64,000 nucleotides of DNA from Anadara kagoshimensis (taxonomy: Eukaryota > Mollusca > Bivalvia > Arcoida > Arcidae), in contig CM037861.1 in the NCBI GenBank assembly GCA_021292105.1, positions 47,919,310 through 47,983,309 of the forward strand. The letters run 5' to 3'. This document shows, piece after piece, positions 61-27,894 of the stretch. A program made the position numbers and the translations under genes. The notes under the pieces were generated by a model. The model had not been told where the DNA came from and made no database searches. It saw nothing but the letters and a program-made list of their open reading frames with translations. Every line of letters starts with the position of its first letter. Positions within the stretch are counted from its first letter, which is position 1.

Positions 61-76
61 TATATCGTCGGCACCG
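61..76 (+). repeat. left end of inner element: TATA target copy plus terminal inverted repeat
   Basis: TATA (61-64) is followed by TCGTCGGCACCG (65-76). The same 16 bases occur inverted at 5801-5816. Because TATA is its own reverse complement, the target duplication could be TA or TATA. The inverted similarity continues more loosely for about 20 further bases (an AAAAATCC block). Confidence 0.88.
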
Positions 77-78
77 AT

Positions 79-344
79 CAAAAATCCCGAATCTGCAATT
101 TTGGTCTCTAAGGGATTTTTTATTATATTACAATACTTAAAGTTCCCGCTCTTTTTGCAAAAATACCGGACCCAGAATATTAAACAAAAAGGTGAAAAAA
201 TCATGTGACAAAATCCCCGTATCTGTGTTGTTTTCAATAAAAATCCCGAAACTGCAAAGTTTTGAGATAAGGGATTTTTTCATTACAGGTACAAAGTCAA
301 AAATCCCGAAACTACGGTAGAATGTAGATTCGGGATTTTTGAAC
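79..344. repeat. left subterminal repeats of inner element
   Basis: The motif AAAATCCCGAAACTGCA or close variants occurs at 79-97, 236-256 and 297-315 in direct orientation and at 325-341 inverted. Shorter inverted GGGATTTTT cores lie at 112-120 and 271-280. The last direct and inverted copies face each other across about 10 bases and could form a hairpin. Arrays like this near transposon ends are typical transposase-binding sites. That role is inferred here. Confidence 0.8.
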
Positions 345-852
345 AAAAATTGTTGCAGATACAGATTTTTTGACTAAGAAGAAGAATTGTGTTTTTCGCT
401 GCAATTGCAGTTTAAATATATCTAAAGTCTTCATGAGAGTAAGTAGCCTTTTTTCTAATTGTTTACACTAACATTAATTACACAAACAATATTTAATGAT
501 AAATACTACTATAATTTATCTACTGAATCCACATGGTAAAACACAGATCACATGTATTATGAATGACATCATAAAAATAAACAGGAAAACAACAATAGTC
601 AATCGGCAATGAGACATTTGAAATATTTATTTTAATTTGTCAGTCTCTAAATATTTTTGAATATTATTTTTCAGTTTTATTGCAGTTACGGGAATTTTGA
701 ATTATGTTAAATCATCGAAAAGTGCATTTAGGGGATTTTTAATTTTTTTCGAAAGACCATGCTCCAGTTTGTAAATGTTTTTTTTTTTCATTTTAATGGT
801 TCAAATATGTAATAAAATAGCCACCAATTAATAACCAATTTTTTTCATTTCA
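345..852 (+). other. 5' noncoding part of inner element
   Basis: AT-rich, with no open frame I believe. It contains one more subterminal motif, inverted and with a T variant (TGCAGTTACGGGAATTTTGA, 681-700), and a GGGGATTTTT core near 729-738. It ends in a good 3' splice-like sequence (TTTTTTTCATTTCAG, 838-852), so transcription may start in this stretch and the first intron may end at 852. Confidence 0.45.
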
Positions 853-897
853 GATTTCACATTTAAAACATTATTCAAAATGGTATAAAATGGCAGC

Positions 898-2171
898 ATG
901 GTAAGTAGACATAAGATTGTTCTCTCAGTAACTAGATAAATGTTACATGGATTAGTATGCTTGTTTTTGATTACATTTTTGAGCATATGAATTTGTATTA
1001 CCGGTTCAAGGTTTTGACAGAAATAACAGGTAAAACGTTTTAGTGAAAGCTTTTGCGCAAAAGATACATGCTTGAAAACAAGAATTGTGTTAAAAAGTGG
1101 CACAAAATATTTATACAAATAACTGTATAAGGGACTCTGATTATAAAACACGAATTTTGATGATTGGGCACTAGATACAATGATTAAATGGTTTCCACGG
1201 GATAAAATGCATTTGTAGAGCCCAAAATAAAGTCATTTTATGAACAGTGTCTTCACATATTGAAAACAACATGCAGTGAATCAACAATCGGACATAATTT
1301 AATTTATAGATGTAGATTGGGATTTTATTAATATTTTAATGGTATGTTTTTCATTTTAAGCAGATATCCCTTGAATCAACTGAATTAATTTTAGTATTTT
1401 TATTATGTGCTCTTGATGACTGAAACACATCTTTTTAGTCTTTTTCACTTTGTATTACAGGATATAGACCAAAAATTAACATTGATCGACCTGCCTGACC
1501 TCATACTGGTGAAAATATTACAATACATCAAGTTCAGTGATCTTATTGGTATAGTTAACAGAACCTGCAAACGATTTAATGAAGTGGTGAAAGAGAATTC
1601 CAGACTGTGGAGACATTTGCATTTTGGACACCCAATTAAATTAAACAAAGAACAGCTTCACTATGTTTTAAGTCACAGTAATGGGTTTTTCGAACTTTCT
1701 ATTCCACACACAACATTTGCATGCTCTGTTCCGGACATTGACAGTGCCTTAATATTTGGATTGTGTAACGCTAAAAACCTATATTGGCTTGATTTAACTG
1801 AATGTAAATTGTCTACATTATGTTTTTTAGAATATTTACCCAACCTCGAAATACTAAATGTGTCAGAATGTCCGAATCTTATTGATGACGACTTTCATGC
1901 AATTCGTTATTGCAAAAAGCTTGATCATCTTTATGTTTCATTTTCAAGAATAACGCCATCCACTGTTGTTAGTATCACTACTGAATTGAGATTAACAGTG
2001 CTTGATGTTTCTGGAATAAAATTCTCACTAGAGCAATGTCGACAGTTATTTGAAGCCAGTTATGAAACATTATTATTTGTTAATATAAGTTTAGAGGATA
2101 GTGAAAGTGCTCAGGGTTTTGAACGATTGTTAAGATATTATGTTGACTGTAACATTGTAAGGAAATATTAA
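898..2171 (+). CDS. F-box/leucine-rich-repeat protein (element-encoded)
   Basis: Proposed as two exons: ATG at 898-900, donor GTAAGTAGAC at 901, an intron of 560 bases, acceptor TGTATTACAG ending at 1460, then 1461-2171 in phase 0. This gives about 237 residues. The unspliced alternative starts at ATG 1407 (254 residues) but would include the pyrimidine tract, so I prefer the spliced model. The N-terminal part (residues about 7-50) has the F-box pattern LPDLILVKILQYI..DL....C.RFN, ending in an LW pair. The rest has leucine-rich repeats such as LYWLDLTECKLSTL and LEILNVSECPNL. F-box proteins bind Skp1 and bring targets to an SCF ubiquitin ligase, with LRRs usually binding the target. That role is family knowledge. 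The gene stops one base before the next start codon and lies between the element's subterminal repeats. Confidence 0.8.
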
Positions 2172-2172
2172 C

Positions 2173-4296
2173 ATGATATCTAGAGGAAAATATTTAGTGG
2201 ATCTTGCTTTGAAGAAACATTCGTCTACCAATCAAATTGAAAAGGAAAGAGAGGATTCCAACAATGATTCCTATAGACAAATACAAATATCTGGCACACA
2301 AATAATTGAAAAAGTAGTGGAACCTACACATACTATTCCAGATATATCCTGTCAGGAAAGTGATGGGTTTATGTACGAAAACGAAGAAAATCATTTAAGA
2401 GCAAACAGTGACAGTGAGAGTGACATTGATGATGATGTCAGAGACCCAGATTGGGTAATGCCAAAAAAGAGACCGTATGAATCAAGTAAAGAATCAAGTG
2501 ATAGTGAATGTGAAGGTAGAGTCATAGAATCTACACTGCCAGATCAACTAGATGTAGATCATGAGGAAATCGTGGACAACGAAGACAAAAAGAAAAAGAG
2601 AAAACATAACATAAGAGAATGTAACCAAAAGCTTAGAATGGAAGGTAAGGCCTATTTGGGCATTAATAAAAAAGCAACAGGTGGTAAGGCAAAGTACTTG
2701 ATTCCGCGCTCTGAAAGGATAATGAAAGATAGACCATGTAAGGAAATATGTGTAAAGGGTACAGGAGGAAAGAGGTGTATGATGATTGATGACAATACCA
2801 GACAGACAATCTTTAGTTCATTCTGGAAGGAGTTGGACTGGCATGGAAAAAAAGTTTATGCACTTGGACTGATAGATAAAGTTGAAACTGCTAGGAAGAC
2901 AAATAATTCAGGTATTAGTAGAAGAAGATTTACATACAAGTATCACCTTAAAAAAGACGGAGAACGTTTTCTTGTGTGTAAGGCTTTGTTTATATCTACT
3001 CTTGGTGTAACAGAAGATGAAATACGTGATTGGTTGTCAACTGCCCCTAATCGTGTTGGAATACCAAAATCACCTCAACCTCCAAACAAAAACAAAGATG
3101 CGAAAAGTACAAAAATGTTTAATGATGCTAAAGAATTTTTAACAGAAATTCCAAAGATGCCATCACACTACTGTAGGTCAGAGACATCTAAACTTTATCT
3201 AGAATCTTCATTTACATCTATAAGAGAAGTACACAGAGAATACATAAAACACATGTCTGAAAAGGGTAAAGCATCTTACAATATCACAAGATTTACTGAA
3301 ATTTTTAAAGAAATGAATTTGGCGTTATTTCAACCTAAGAAGGACCAGTGTGATTTATGTTGTGCATACAAGGCAGGTAATGTACAAGAAGATGATTATC
3401 TGAGGCATATCAAAGAAAAGGATGATGCAAGGAATGTCAAATCTCTAGACAAAGAAAGAGCCATTACTATTAAAGACACAATTGTAATAACAATGGATCT
3501 GCAAAGCTTACTTCTATGTCCAAAATTAGAGGCAAGTTGTATGTACTATAAAACAAAGCTTTGTTGCCATAATTTTACATTTTATAATCTTGCATCCAGC
3601 GATGTATCAAATTATTTCTGGAACGAAACTGCTGCAGATTTAAGATCAAGCACGTTTGCAACATGTATTGTAGATTATCTTGAAAATCTATCTCTGGAAA
3701 ACATAGTAGGCATCATTTTGTATAGTGATGGATGTGCCTATCAAAATAGAAATGTAACATTGTCAAATGCACTTCGTATGTTTTCTATGAGGCATAATAT
3801 AACAGTAGATCAAAAGTTTCTTATTCGAGGCCATACACAAATGGAATGTGATAGTGTACATAGTACCATAGAGAGAAGTCTTCGAAAAAAAGAAATTTAT
3901 ATTCCACAGCATTACGTTGACTGTATTAAACAGGCAAGAAAAAGTAACAAGTACAAGGTCAAGTATGTAAGTCACGAGTTCTTTAAAGACTACAGCAAGT
4001 CTTTGTATTATACATCAATTAGACCAGGAATGGGTACTGGTTCTCCAGTTGTAACAGATATACGACAACTGAGATATACGTCAGATGGCAACATTGGATA
4101 TAAAACTAATCACAATGACAAAGATTTTACCCCACTTCGTAAACCACGACTTGCAACTGAAGAGATTACTCAAGCGCCATCTCTCTTTGATATGCCCTTA
4201 CCGTTGAAAAAGACCAAATATGATCATCTTCAGCAAATGAAAGATGTTATTCCTAAAGATTATCACGCCTTCTTTGATACTTTACCTCACGCGTAG
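2173..4296 (+). CDS. transposase-like protein (DUF7869-like family, recalled)
   Basis: An intact 707-residue frame. Residues about 78-92 are acidic and serine-rich. Residues 139-144 are a run of K and R suitable as a nuclear signal. A Cys-rich stretch (CKEIC, near 189-193) and a second one (CDLCC, 393-397) suggest metal binding. The C-terminal core has three acidic motifs in order: VITMDLQ (D442), LYSDGCAYQNRN (D519) and GHTQMECDSVHSTIE (E558, D560, E567). This order resembles an RNase H-fold DDE/D catalytic core, and the spacing from the second to the third is about 40 residues. I know very similar uncharacterised proteins in insects, cnidarians and molluscs (SDGC.YQNRN, GHTQME.DSVHS). Its place between inverted repeats supports a transposase role, which is inferred. 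The start ATG follows the upstream stop TAA by one base and is in another frame, so expression may use reinitiation or alternative splicing. Confidence 0.78.
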   Translation: MISRGKYLVDLALKKHSSTNQIEKEREDSNNDSYRQIQISGTQIIEKVVEPTHTIPDISCQESDGFMYENEENHLRANSDSESDIDDDVRDPDWVMPKKRPYESSKESSDSECEGRVIESTLPDQLDVDHEEIVDNEDKKKKRKHNIRECNQKLRMEGKAYLGINKKATGGKAKYLIPRSERIMKDRPCKEICVKGTGGKRCMMIDDNTRQTIFSSFWKELDWHGKKVYALGLIDKVETARKTNNSGISRRRFTYKYHLKKDGERFLVCKALFISTLGVTEDEIRDWLSTAPNRVGIPKSPQPPNKNKDAKSTKMFNDAKEFLTEIPKMPSHYCRSETSKLYLESSFTSIREVHREYIKHMSEKGKASYNITRFTEIFKEMNLALFQPKKDQCDLCCAYKAGNVQEDDYLRHIKEKDDARNVKSLDKERAITIKDTIVITMDLQSLLLCPKLEASCMYYKTKLCCHNFTFYNLASSDVSNYFWNETAADLRSSTFATCIVDYLENLSLENIVGIILYSDGCAYQNRNVTLSNALRMFSMRHNITVDQKFLIRGHTQMECDSVHSTIERSLRKKEIYIPQHYVDCIKQARKSNKYKVKYVSHEFFKDYSKSLYYTSIRPGMGTGSPVVTDIRQLRYTSDGNIGYKTNHNDKDFTPLRKPRLATEEITQAPSLFDMPLPLKKTKYDHLQQMKDVIPKDYHAFFDTLPHA

Positions 4297-5517
4297 ACCC
4301 AAAGATGGCATGGTAATCTTTTGGAATTACATTTTCATCTGCTGTAAACAGGAACCAATATAAATAGGTGTATGTAAAGTTCCATGACTGATAATATTAG
4401 ACTGTCTGAGATGCCTCAGAAAAATTCATTTATATATAAATATAACATTTTTGATTGACTTAACAACTTTGTAGTTTGATGATTTCTATCACAGTTTCTA
4501 TTAAGAGACATTTTTCATAATTGTTTTAGACTGGAAGTCATAGTTATGCTAGTTACATGTATTTAGATTTTGTTACTCGTCATTTTAGATTAGATAAATC
4601 ATAATGTTAATGTTCGAGTTTTGAGAGGGTTATTTGGGTTTGCGGATTTGGCTTATGAAAATACTGTTGTGTTGAAATGTATGTAAATGTCTTCAGTTAA
4701 CATTTACCGATATGTCTGTAAATATTTAAAAATGTTAAGAGATTCAGAACTGATTTGTACTAATGTTGAAATTTAAAGGTTTGTTTTGATTTAATTCACC
4801 GCTTTAAACTCTTTAAAAGTTTGAATATTTTCTTTTTATTTTCACTGGGGATATCACCAGGTTACAATTAAATTGTTTTGATCATGTTTGGTTGGAATCA
4901 CCCTTAGCACAATAATCAAATGATTGTTCAATAGAAGTTCATCTAAAAAAACTCTAAATTTGTTCACCCTTCCAAGACAAATGCAAGTGTGACAGTACTG
5001 ACTGAGGTATTATCATTCCAAGCAATAATTTCTTACTCTGGCGGTTTGTCAGTTTTATATAATGTTCGCTTAAACATTCCAGGGTCCACTTACATGTATC
5101 ATTAACCAAGATACTGTTTAATATCCTAATGATAATTTGTAAATGACACATAATGTCATATCTTATTTTCAATCATAACAAGTAGTTATAAGAGATACTG
5201 TTTAACTATGGTTTATTCGAAATTATTTACAAAGTATTAAATATTCAAATTACACTGATTTTGGTGATGATTTAAGTTTGATGTTCCATTTTCCTTAATT
5301 ACACTTTACAATAAAGACATAATTATATTTCTGACTGCTTTTTGTTATATTGTATTTAAGTAGTTTTCTAGCAAAGATAATTTTAATTTAGCGAAAATTC
5401 ACAAAATGATAGCAATGATGAGCAATTGGATGTTTTCCCATAATATTAAAGTGATCTCAATGTAAAACTTGATATACATTGCTGTTTATTGTTGGTTTGT
5501 TTTTATGCATTTCAAGT
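4297..5517. other. 3' noncoding part of inner element
   Basis: About 1.2 kb of AT-rich sequence without a credible frame. Apart from a polyadenylation signal at 5310-5315 I see no motif. Its length is unusual for a transposon 3' end and could include the untranslated region of the upstream gene. Confidence 0.5.
5310..5315 (+). terminator. possible polyadenylation signal
   Basis: AATAAA about 1 kb after the transposase-like stop codon. The region is AT-rich, so a chance match is possible. Confidence 0.35.
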
Positions 5518-5632
5518 AAAATTCCCGTAATTACAAAAAGGTATAAGCAATTTTACCTTAACTACAATAAGTATTCAAAATTACCGTTTCTGTATAACAG
5601 CCTATGAAGAAAAAATCCCGTAACTGCATTAA
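5518..5632. repeat. right subterminal repeats of inner element
   Basis: AATTCCCGTAATTACA at 5518-5535, AAATTACCG near 5577-5586 and AAAATCCCGTAACTGCA at 5612-5628 are in direct orientation. GTAGTTACAGGATTTTT at 5781-5797 is inverted, against the right terminal repeat. They match the left-end motif with T in place of A at one position. Confidence 0.75.
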
Positions 5633-5800
5633 TATAGACTTAAAGAATTTTTCATCAAATATAAGTTTAGATATTTATAAATGAAAAAACAATAGTTTTT
5701 CATGTTAAAAAGCTCATTTCGATAAAAAAATCTAATAGGAGATAAAAGGTTTTTTGTCTCTCCTGAAAAGTTTATCAAACGTAGTTACAGGATTTTTTTA

Positions 5801-5816
5801 CGGTGCCGACGATATA
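5801..5816 (-). repeat. right end of inner element: terminal inverted repeat plus TATA target copy
   Basis: CGGTGCCGACGA (5801-5812) is the exact reverse complement of 65-76. It is followed by TATA (5813-5816) and then by mariner sequence. Confidence 0.88.
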
Positions 5817-5841: not shown

Positions 5842-6893
5842 TTATAATTTTTCAATATAGTCCCCATTTACCCCAATGCACTTAGCCCACTTTTCTTTCA
5901 GACTGTCTATACCTTTGAAATAGAAATCTTCGGTTTGGTCCTGAAACCATGCCTCTGTGGCAGCCTTAAGTCCATCATCATCAGGAAATCTAATTCCAAA
6001 TGGGATTTCAGTATTCTAAATAGGAAATTATCACTGGGTGCCAAATCGGGACTGTAGGGTGGGTGATTAAGTTGTTCGAACTTGCATTCACGAAGCTTGT
6101 GAAATCCTTGACTTGTGCACAGGAGCATTGTCATGAAGAGGCAATACCCCTCGGCTCATCTTTCCCCTCCTTTTTAATCTAATAGCAGCTTTAAGCTGCT
6201 TTAATAGATCAGCATAGTAAGCCTCAGTGATAGAGATTCCAGCAGGTTTATAATTGATTAACAGAACACCCTTAGAATCCCAAAACACAGTGGCCATGAC
6301 TTTGCCAGCTGATGGTTGGGTTTTGAATTTCCTTGGTGGGGGTAAGCCAGGGTGTTCCATTGCATGGACTCTTTTTTGGTGTATGGGTCCCAATGACGAA
6401 TCCATATTTCATCACCAGTTACTAAACGTAAATGGAAGCTCTCCGGGCTATCACTATAAATGCCAAGAAGCTCCTGACTTAACTGAAGTCTTTGGAAGCG
6501 ATCCTGCACATTATGGTTTTTGGGGACCCATCTTGCGGATACTTTTGACATCTCAAGATGCTCGTGGATAAACGTGTATACACTTTCATGTGAAATGTCA
6601 CACTCTTTAGCTATGCCATCATTCCAAATTCGACGATCATTTATGATGAGGGTTTCCACAGACGTGACAATTTCCATTGTGATGGCATTAGCTGGCCGAC
6701 CTGACCGTGGGTCATCCTTCAGTGAGGTGCGCCCACGTTTAAAATTCATCTGACCATTTTGCAACTGTGAAATAGGCAGGACCACTGTCACCGTACACCT
6801 CGGCCATTCGCCGGTGAATTTCTTTGCATTTGATGCCTCTACTGTGAGCAACTTTATTACTGCCCGAAACTTAACATTTTCATTTTCCATCAT
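5842..6893 (-). pseudogene. mariner transposase, frameshifted
   Basis: Minus strand, starting with MMENENVKF at 6893. The N-terminal part shows the helix-turn-helix region and the linker KRGRTSLKDDPRSGRP. The catalytic motifs follow: GDEIWI (near 6402-6416), LHDNAPVH (6115-6138) and HPPYSPDLAPSD (about 6030-6069). They form the mariner D,D34D triad, but the second and third Asp codons are about 100 bases apart where 105 is expected. The motifs lie in three frames, breaking near 6360 and between 6088 and 6134. The C-terminus (GIDSLKEKWAKCIG) is in yet another frame, ending with TAA at 5842-5844. A further short out-of-frame patch lies near 6750-6820. The normal length is about 345 residues. 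This copy cannot make active enzyme. Confidence 0.92.
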
Positions 6894-22084: not shown

Positions 22085-23793
22085 TAGCTCACCTGACCGA
22101 AGGTCATGTGAGCTTATGGCATAGCGCAGCGTGTGTATGTGCGTGCGTCGTTAACACCTATTTTCGACTTCTCTGAAACTACTGGACAGTTTTTAATGAA
22201 ACTTTTTCAGAAGTATATATGGGCCGGTGCAATTCAGATTTGTTCGTGGCGTTGCTATGGCTACCATAACTAGGTCAAGGTGACCTAGGGGTGCGAACAT
22301 CTTAAAAAATCTTCTTCTCCGAAAGTACTGATTGGAGAAAAAATCTGATGTGATATTTGGCTTCTCTAGGGTCTTAAGCCTATAGTTTGTTCATTTTGTG
22401 AAATTCGGATAAAAAATAGGTTACGCGTTTTTGCGTTTAATTTTGAAAAAATCGTAAAATAGCTTCAAATTGTTATAACTTGACTATTTGACCAGATAAT
22501 GACATGGGGTTTTCAGTTTTGACATCTTCAAAATGAGGTCAAGGTCAATTGTGAAGGTCGTGACCTAATTTTTTTTACCTCTGATTATAATTATAATCTC
22601 AAAAATTATAAACTTTTTGTATAGGCATGTATATTAGAGTGTTGTAGGTATCGATACAACAATCATTTTGATGTATAGAAAAAGGTCATGGGTTCAAAGG
22701 TCAAGGTCACAGATGCGAAACAATACCGAAATGGTTAATTATCTCGAAAACTATAAACATTTTGTATAGGCATATATATTAGAATGTTGTAGGTATTGAT
22801 ACAACGATCATTTTGATGTATAGAAAAAGGTCATGGGTTCAAAGGTCAAGGTCACAGATGTGAAACAATACCGAAATGGTTAATTATCTCGAAAACTATA
22901 AACTTTTTGTATAGGCTTGTATATTAGAATGTTGTAGGTATTGATACAACGATCATTTTGATGTATAGATAAAGGTCATGGGTTCAAACGTCAAGGTCAC
23001 AGATGCAAAACAATACCGAAATGGTTAATTATCTCGAAAACTATAAACTTTTTGTATGGGCATGTATATTAGAATGTTGTAGGTATTGATACAACAATCA
23101 TTTTAATGTATAGAAAAAGGTTATTGGTTTAAAGGTCAAGGTCACATATGCAAAACATAACCGAAATGTTTAATTATCTCGAAAACTATAAAGTTTTTGT
23201 ATAGGCATGTATATTAGAATGTTGTAGGTATCGATACAACGATAATTTTGATTTATAGAAAAGGGTCATGGGTTCAAAGGTCAAGGTCACAGATGTGAAA
23301 CAATACCGAAATGGTTAATTATCTCGAAAACTATAAACGTTTTGTATAGGCTTGTATATTAGAATGTTGTAGGTATTGATACAACGATCATTTTGATGTA
23401 TAGAAAAAGGTCATGGGTTCAAAGGTCACGGTCACATATATAAAGCAATACCGAAATGGTTAATTATCTCGAAAACTATAAACTTTTTGTATAGGCTTGT
23501 ATATAAGAATGTTGTAGGCATCGATACAACGATCATTTTGATGTATAGAAAAAGGTCATGGGTTCAAAGGTCAAGGTCACAGATGTGAAACAATACTGAA
23601 ATTGTTAATTATCTTGAAAACTATTAACTTTTTTGTATAGGCATGTATACTAGAATGTTGTAGGTATTGATACAATGGTTATCATGATGTAAAGAAAAAA
23701 GTCATTTGGGTTTAGTATTTATGTTTTCTTTAAATCTATCAGCTAGCCATTAGTTATCAGGTGAGCGTATCAGGCCCATGGGCCTCTTGTTTA
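22085..23793. mobile_element. hairpin-ended nonautonomous element with internal tandem array
   Basis: The left end is a hairpin (AGCTCACCTGACC against GGTCATGTGAGCT, 12 of 13 paired). Near the right end lies a 14-base palindrome (AGGCCCATGGGCCT), followed by CTTGTTT. Elements with these ends and GGTCAAGGTCAC units are abundant in bivalves, from memory. No coding sequence. A related piece without the ends lies at 57230-57345, and one stray tandem unit at 49770-49905. Confidence 0.75.
22540..23699 (+). repeat. 145-bp tandem array (7 full units plus a diverged first unit)
   Basis: GGTCATGGGTTCAAAGGTCA recurs at 22684, 22829, 22974, 23119, 23264, 23409 and 23554, every interval exactly 145 bases. 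The last boundary is at 23700 (146). A more diverged unit precedes the first. Each unit contains GTCAAGGTCACAGATG and ATTAGAATGTTGTAGGTATT. Confidence 0.95.
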
Positions 23794-26469: not shown

Positions 26470-27894
26470 TAACTGAAGCATATTAGGATTCTAATGTCAA
26501 CTACAAATCAACTTTTATATGTATGTAACGAAATCGGGAGGGCATTGGATATGGGTAAGAAAGTAAGGATGGTGTTTTGCGATATAGGTATTAAAGGAAA
26601 TTTACTGCAATGGTTTAAAAGTTTTCTTAGCAGTAGAAACCAAAGAGTAGTTATCAAAAACAATTGTTCAATTTTTTTACCTGTTACTGCGGGGGTTCCA
26701 CAAGGTTCAATTCTTGGACCTATACTTTTTATAATTTATATAAATGATAATGTTGAAAGTATTGACAGTAATATAAGACTTTTTGCTGATGATACATCCC
26801 TATATGTAACTGTTGATGATCCATCTGACGCTTCAATGTCATTAAATAACGATTTGGAAACTATCCACAACTGGTCAAAGCAATGGCTCGTATCTTTTAA
26901 TTCTCAAAAAACAGAATCTATGATTTTTTTCTCGAAAAATAATACAGCCATTTCATCTGGCAATATACTTGGACAATTCGTCAATACATGAAGCTGATTG
27001 CCATAAACATCTTGGTATAAAAACAAGTTTACTCTAGATTAGCTATTCAATTCCAACTTGATCGCAAATCTCTCGAAAAAATATATTTCACCTTCATTCG
27101 GTCATTACTAGAATATGGAGACATTCTCTGGGACAACCTCACTCAGGAATATATATATAGATAAGCTAGAAAAAATTAACATTGAAGCATCTCGCACTGT
27201 TTGCGGAGCCACCAAATTATCTAGTTTGTACTTATTGTATCAAGAAGTCGGTTGGGAAACTTTAGAATGCCGTCGTTAAAAACATAAACTGTTACAATTC
27301 TATAAAATGTATCGATGCCTGTCTTCTCAATATCTAAACGACTTGATACTTTCAACAACTTTCCAGGGACACTCTTATAATACACGTACATCTAGCAATT
27401 TAGACACGTTCTTGTGCAAAACGGATACTTACTTCAAATCTTTCCTACCTTCTGTAACAAGAGATTGGAATGATCTACCGAGACATATTAGTGAAGGCTC
27501 TATTTCTAAATTCAAAACATTCCTCAATAATGAATCACAAATACCATCCCACTTTGATATTGGCAATCGTATTGAACAAATACATCATTGTCGATTGCGC
27601 TTAAAATGCAGTTCATTAAATTCCCATCTCTTTCATAAAAATCTCATAGAAAACCTTTATTGTTGATGTGGTCAAATTGAGAATACGGAACACTTTTTTG
27701 TTACACTGCCCTTTGTATCATGTTATTCGACGTCGTACTATAGGAACCTTGAATTGCCATTATAATTTGAGTACATTGTTATATGGTGATAGTTCACTAA
27801 CACCAGCGAAAAATTCTGAAGTGTTCTTGCATGTCCATGAACTCATTCGCCAATCCAATCGATTTCACTGAAAACTATTCATTCCCTATTGTTT

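Follow-up and report, generated by a model that had tools for sequence, protein, structure and literature searches.

An F-box/LRR gene paired with a DUF7869-type transposase gene in a young transposon of the bivalve Anadara kagoshimensis

Introduction

Among the closest described counterparts of the element presented here is Ginger1, a group of DDE transposons with OTU, Ulp1, or PHD modules in their proteins, for which the authors have proposed that the ubiquitin pathway plays a role in transposition (PMC2836005, in the part of the text available). Our locus and its relatives, putatively also DDE-type transposons, resemble Ginger1 in having ubiquitin- or chromatin-related modules. They differ from it in that the Ginger1 transposase is related to Gypsy integrases and has its modules at the C terminus, whereas here the modules precede the transposase and one of them is an F-box gene; the term F-box does not occur in the available part of that paper (PMC2836005).

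Kolobok lineages (PMC9587614) and fungal transposons bearing TET/JBP genes (PMC12730594), as far as the accessible portions of these papers go, retain another gene alongside that of the transposase, and the kind of gene varies by lineage. This is the likeness to our locus. The difference is that their transposases and target duplications are of other types and that the accessory genes encode nucleases, a helicase, KolX, or a dioxygenase. F-box has no occurrence in the same portions of the two papers or in the accessible portion of a survey of bivalves (PMC10294476). OTU/Ulp1/PHD modules, a proposed ubiquitin role, and lineage-varying accessories are already on record, and an F-box gene as the accessory was not found in the literature searched. 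Judged by titles and the opening lines of abstracts, our searches returned no F-box gene encoded by a transposon; they did not extend to Repbase or to most subscription papers, and such an element may already be in print.

Structure of the element

The window, by which we mean the whole 64-kb stretch of DNA that was analysed, belongs to contig C5 of a genome of 1.115 Gb in 36 contigs. It contains a transposon of 5746 bp at 66..5811 on the plus strand, with further complete copies on C4 and C13. A first-pass annotation of the window had described 12-bp inverted ends flanked by TATA. Inverted ends and flanking TATA are both there, but the length and the phase were each off by one base: the terminal inverted repeats are perfect over 11 bp (CGTCGGCACCG at 66..76 and CGGTGCCGACG at 5801..5811, +), and the adjoining copies of the target site duplication read ATAT (62..65 on the left and 5812..5815 on the right). 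The 4-bp length of the duplication is taken from sister-family insertions, because pairs other than ATAT agree on both sides there, namely ATAA on C16 (L057/L024), ATAC and ATTT at two insertions on C12 (L054/L041 and L058/L042, respectively), and GTAT on C14 (L059/L037). Six insertions have ATAT on both sides: the window-family copies on C5 and C13, a copy on C5 of the PHD family described below, and three copies of the OTU type. Altogether, the flanking 4 bp match in 10 of the 12 insertions of the window and sister families that were read at both sides, the misfits being the window-family copy on C4 (ATAT/ATTA(T)) and the C2 element (AATT/ATAT). Two other duplications were considered and rejected, TATA by the C13 copy, which gives ATAT/ATAT but CATA/TATG in the TATA phase, and TA by the matched pairs ATAA, ATAC, ATTT, and GTAT. 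Across the related families, the ends mostly start CGTSGG.

Transposons of the Sola superfamily have 4-bp target duplications. That likeness is weak, since a 4-bp duplication is common to other superfamilies too, and we do not file the element there.

The motif arrays seen initially near both ends of the element are real by a simple count. The motif AAAATCCCGWAWCTGCA, derived from the element itself, has 11 matches with up to 3 mismatches in the 64-kb window, where 0.71 would be expected and none of 100 shuffles reaches 11. All of them lie in the end regions, 8 in the left array (81..739) and 3 in the right array (5519..5796). The CGAATCT core of the left array occupies bases 23-29 of the element. 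When ten ends from five families were compared (both ends of the window copy, the right end of the C4 copy, both ends of the C2, PHD, and OTU elements, and the left end of the third F-box family), bases 23-29 read CGWAWCT in eight and departed from it by one base in the remaining two. At this fixed distance from the end, CGWAWCT is the leading candidate for the site that the transposase binds.

Two open frames adjoin inside the element, as had been reported, with a single base between the stop of the F-box gene (TAA, 2169-2171) and the ATG of the transposase gene (2173). Fusion of the two products by read-through was considered and ruled out: the F-box frame has a second stop 12 bases further (TAG, 2181-2183), and therefore plain read-through cannot join the frames.

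The main exon of the F-box/LRR gene (1461..2171, +; 236 codons and the stop TAA) contains no in-frame ATG. However it is translated, the sequence offers a plausible start, in that GTAAGT directly follows an ATG at 898..900 (+) and an acceptor ends at 1460. Splicing of a mini-exon, with this ATG as the last codon of exon 1, over a predicted GT..AG intron (GTAAGT..TTACAG, 901..1460, +) would supply the start and give the predicted joined product MDIDQKLTLIDLPDL; the donor and acceptor strings are identical in all five of the other copies. Two ATGs precede the predicted start, one opening an upstream mini-frame (ATG GTA TAA, 880..888, +) and another at 890 that overlaps the start, both read by eye. 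The protein matches the F-box-like family PF12937 at 39.9 bits against a cut-off of 24.3, and this Pfam match is canonical in three families (window, C2, and C25). Matches to LRR_4 and LRR_1 fall under the Pfam cut-offs, and residues 100-181 match LRR proteins in the PDB by sequence, with an E value of about 1e-5; the single F-box protein matched in the PDB, CDC4, was weak (E 0.28).

The transposase gene (2173..4296, +) encodes 707 aa, and its only Pfam match is DUF7869, at 26.5 bits against a cut-off of 26. Searches of PDB sequences with the transposase, both singly and as a profile, gave no match. Four acidic residues, D442, D519, E558, and E567, are invariant in five sequences and are the basis for a putative DDE/D chemistry on an RNase H fold. 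Single-sequence structure predictions for the two proteins were too poor for use, with pLDDT values of 34 and 46.

Copies, relatives, and the age of the gene pair

The element had been called young, and the copies bear this out. The copies on C4, C5 (in the window), and C13 are complete; each has kept its two frames open, and their flanks are unrelated. They differ by 14/5746 (C5-C4), 24/5745 (C5-C13), and 21/5761 (C4-C13) substitutions, or 0.24-0.42%, and also by indels, mostly 3′ of the transposase gene. Three more copies, all on C3, are decayed. Two C3 copies hold inserted DNA, because their far ends, as we pair them, are 14-16 kb away, and two probably represent one duplicated insertion, because the left flank is common to both.

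That the F-box gene travels with the element, as was first suggested, is supported at two depths. Within the family, the first kilobase of the element has full-length matches at six places, the other 40 of 46 rows being short matches to one 30-60-bp stretch, and the F-box sequence is present in all six copies; no copy lacking it was found among these places. Exact matches to the end sequence TATCGTCGGCACCG number 10 in the genome, all of them assignable to the six copies. This search turned up no shortened derivatives that keep the exact ends; it would miss any copy that had both mutated ends and no F-box.

Beyond the family, a genome search with the F-box returned 28 rows at E values up to 1, which group into twelve places with strong matches. 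The window family accounts for six of these, C2 for two, the neighbourhood of C3:13.60 Mb for one, and a single family with copies on C25, C10, and C1 for three. At 9 of the 12, a DUF7869-type transposase is encoded downstream, in the same orientation. Of the weak rows, those read were a host-like frame on C17 (see below) and L062, a short F-box-like remnant on C13. The C2 family has the same gene order, with the F-box first and the transposase start MTSRGKYMLAMSLKK (window counterpart, MISRGKYLVDLALKK) just downstream; it also has a predicted 5′ mini-exon, and its CGWAWCT motif is as far from its ends as in the window family. Joined by eye, ATGGATGAAGA, which is followed by GTAAGT, and TTTATTTCAG would make MDEELQLPQPDLVHMP, in frame with the C2 F-box. 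The ends of the C2 element are perfect over 12 bp, including the T/A beside the duplication (TCGTCGCCGTCG at C2:14278988 and CGACGGCGACGA at C2:14288497-14288508). The C2 transposase is split over four frames, so this copy is not intact. Separately, the C2 locus L045 (about 3200-4100) has a coding repeat, NPIDVSQSLSGVNVDSNTV, in the N terminus of the transposase and another repeat in the presumed intron upstream of the F-box.

The window and C2 families are 45% identical in the F-box, 56% in the transposase, and 60% in its C-terminal part. For the F-box, pS is 0.717 and pN is 0.402, and for the C-terminal part of the transposase, the values are 0.772 and 0.267; with synonymous sites near saturation, only the direction of the difference counts. 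Six comparisons between families, covering both F-box and transposase, all gave that direction, pN below pS, in every one of 200 bootstraps, and it indicates that the F-box evolved under constraint between families.

The third family, near C3:13.60 Mb, has decayed, and a gap of 13 kb separates its F-box from the presumptive transposase partner (L031). A motif array of the same kind lies upstream, and this family probably had the same F-box and transposase arrangement. The family on C25, C10, and C1 (L046, L048, and L049) has an F-box 41% identical to that of the element. Its copies are 99.8-99.9% identical over at least 3.5 kb, with the F-box frame open only on C25, and neither BLAST nor a profile search picked up any trace of a transposase in the 2.3-2.6 kb of downstream sequence that was read. 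This repeated unit may be non-autonomous or may be mobilised in some other way.

The first-pass annotation had named two findings that would go against its own reading: copies lacking the gene, of which we found none (above), and an F-box identical to a host exon in this copy only. On the second point, what we find is different: the F-boxes of the other families are 41-53% identical, and the one host-like F-box/LRR frame that was read (on C17) is 23% identical to the element F-box. Cellular FBXL proteins have an N-terminal F-box and then leucine-rich repeats, a layout that the element protein appears to share, but the element protein is short (about 237 aa) and transposon encoded. Judged by these comparisons, the F-box was not captured recently, and since the gene pair persists in at least one diverged relative, it seems to be a permanent tool of the element and not a chance passenger.

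The position in front of the transposase is not always held by an F-box. A genome search with the transposase gave 66 rows, of which 30 were made into loci and read for modules (window family, 12; C2 family, 5; and L020, L024, L030-L032, and L037-L044). The transposases of L020 and L024, 45-49% identical to that of the window, have a separate PHD-type gene upstream; in L020, this gene encodes 92 aa and scores 24.3 bits against a cut-off of 24. The PHD gene has six matches in the genome at five places, with a transposase nearby at three (C5, C16, and C3:53.35 Mb) and none within about 2.2 kb downstream at the two places on C13. An AG usable as an acceptor stands just 5′ of the transposase ATG in the PHD family, and therefore alternative splicing is possible there. 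The transposases of L037-L044 are more distant (31-33% identical), and an OTU-like domain is fused in front in all eight (tblastn); in L044 the Pfam OTU match passes its cut-off, whereas in L038 it does not. No module was found at L030 and L032. An unrooted tree of the core transposase separates the F-box families from the PHD and OTU types with a support of 0.82, some rows being fragmentary and L030 unreliable. The slot before the transposase thus differs between clades, holding F-box, PHD, or OTU-like modules. Four OTU-type copies (L038-L041, on C6, C3, C4, and C12) are about 99.4-99.6% identical and form a second young family, with an open frame of 1019 aa in the two copies that were translated.

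Proposed mechanism and alternatives

We read the locus, with a probability of about 0.6, as an autonomous cut-and-paste transposon of the DUF7869 lineage that makes AT-rich target duplications of 4 bp and has a long-standing two-gene cassette, in which the F-box protein is a dedicated helper that redirects a host SCF ligase. The transposase would bind the end motifs and move the element by cut and paste. It might be translated by reinitiation or leaky scanning. The F-box would recruit SKP1/CUL1, and the short LRR region would present a substrate, so that the host ubiquitin ligase is redirected. We imagine a host silencing or repair factor as the first choice of substrate and the transposase itself as the second. 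The element could accordingly alter host defence or the level of its transposase, as the first-pass annotation had suggested. One can go further and envision a swappable slot for ubiquitin and chromatin proteins, filled here by a dedicated SCF receptor through which some host factor for silencing or repair is degraded, so that the element would counter host defence by targeted proteolysis; we offer this tentatively, as a possibility on the weaker side.

The second choice of substrate leads to a different account, one of self-control, in which the F-box protein has the element's transposase degraded and thereby keeps copy number down, with expression from the same transcript keeping the two products in proportion. 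The frames are one base apart and their order is kept in the C2 family; the OTU-like, deubiquitinase-type domain fused to the transposase in relatives suggests that it matters whether the transposase carries ubiquitin; and the copy number is very low, at six, with no short exact-end derivatives. Low copy number has many causes, however, and we regard self-control as unlikely. It is also conceivable that the F-box/LRR protein now works outside the SCF ligase, assisting the transposase structurally or by binding DNA. Other transposons also encode helpers whose activity is unknown, such as KolX (PMC9587614, in the accessible portion), and the slot here also holds a PHD-type protein. Against this, the F-box stays a recognisable Pfam match in three families, and a non-ligase role seems to us decidedly improbable.

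Transposons do capture host sequence, as is generally known, and the F-box gene could have been a host gene picked up by chance and carried as a passenger. Its presence in every copy of the family, its retention in place in the C2 family at 45% identity with pN below pS, and its distance from the C17 host-like frame all speak against capture, to which we give very little credence.

Viruses commonly take over cullin ligases by means of adaptors that they themselves encode. If the F-box protein is indeed a dedicated helper that redirects an SCF ligase, a conserved adaptor in a cut-and-paste transposon would extend this viral strategy to genomic parasites. The F-box gene also offers a handle on substrate, beyond the ubiquitin-system proteases recorded in DNA transposons (PMC2836005, in the part available). 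With three intact, near-identical copies, both the activity of the element and its need for the F-box are directly testable.

Other features of the window

Right beside the element, at 6258-6893 on the minus strand, is a frame of 211 aa that has no Pfam match up to an E value of 0.01 and that looks like a decayed mariner-type transposase. Further along the window are a tandem array at 22596-23705, with a 145-bp unit in 7.6 copies at 91% matches, and a reverse-transcriptase fragment at 26473-26991 on the plus strand (RVT_1, 52.4 bits).
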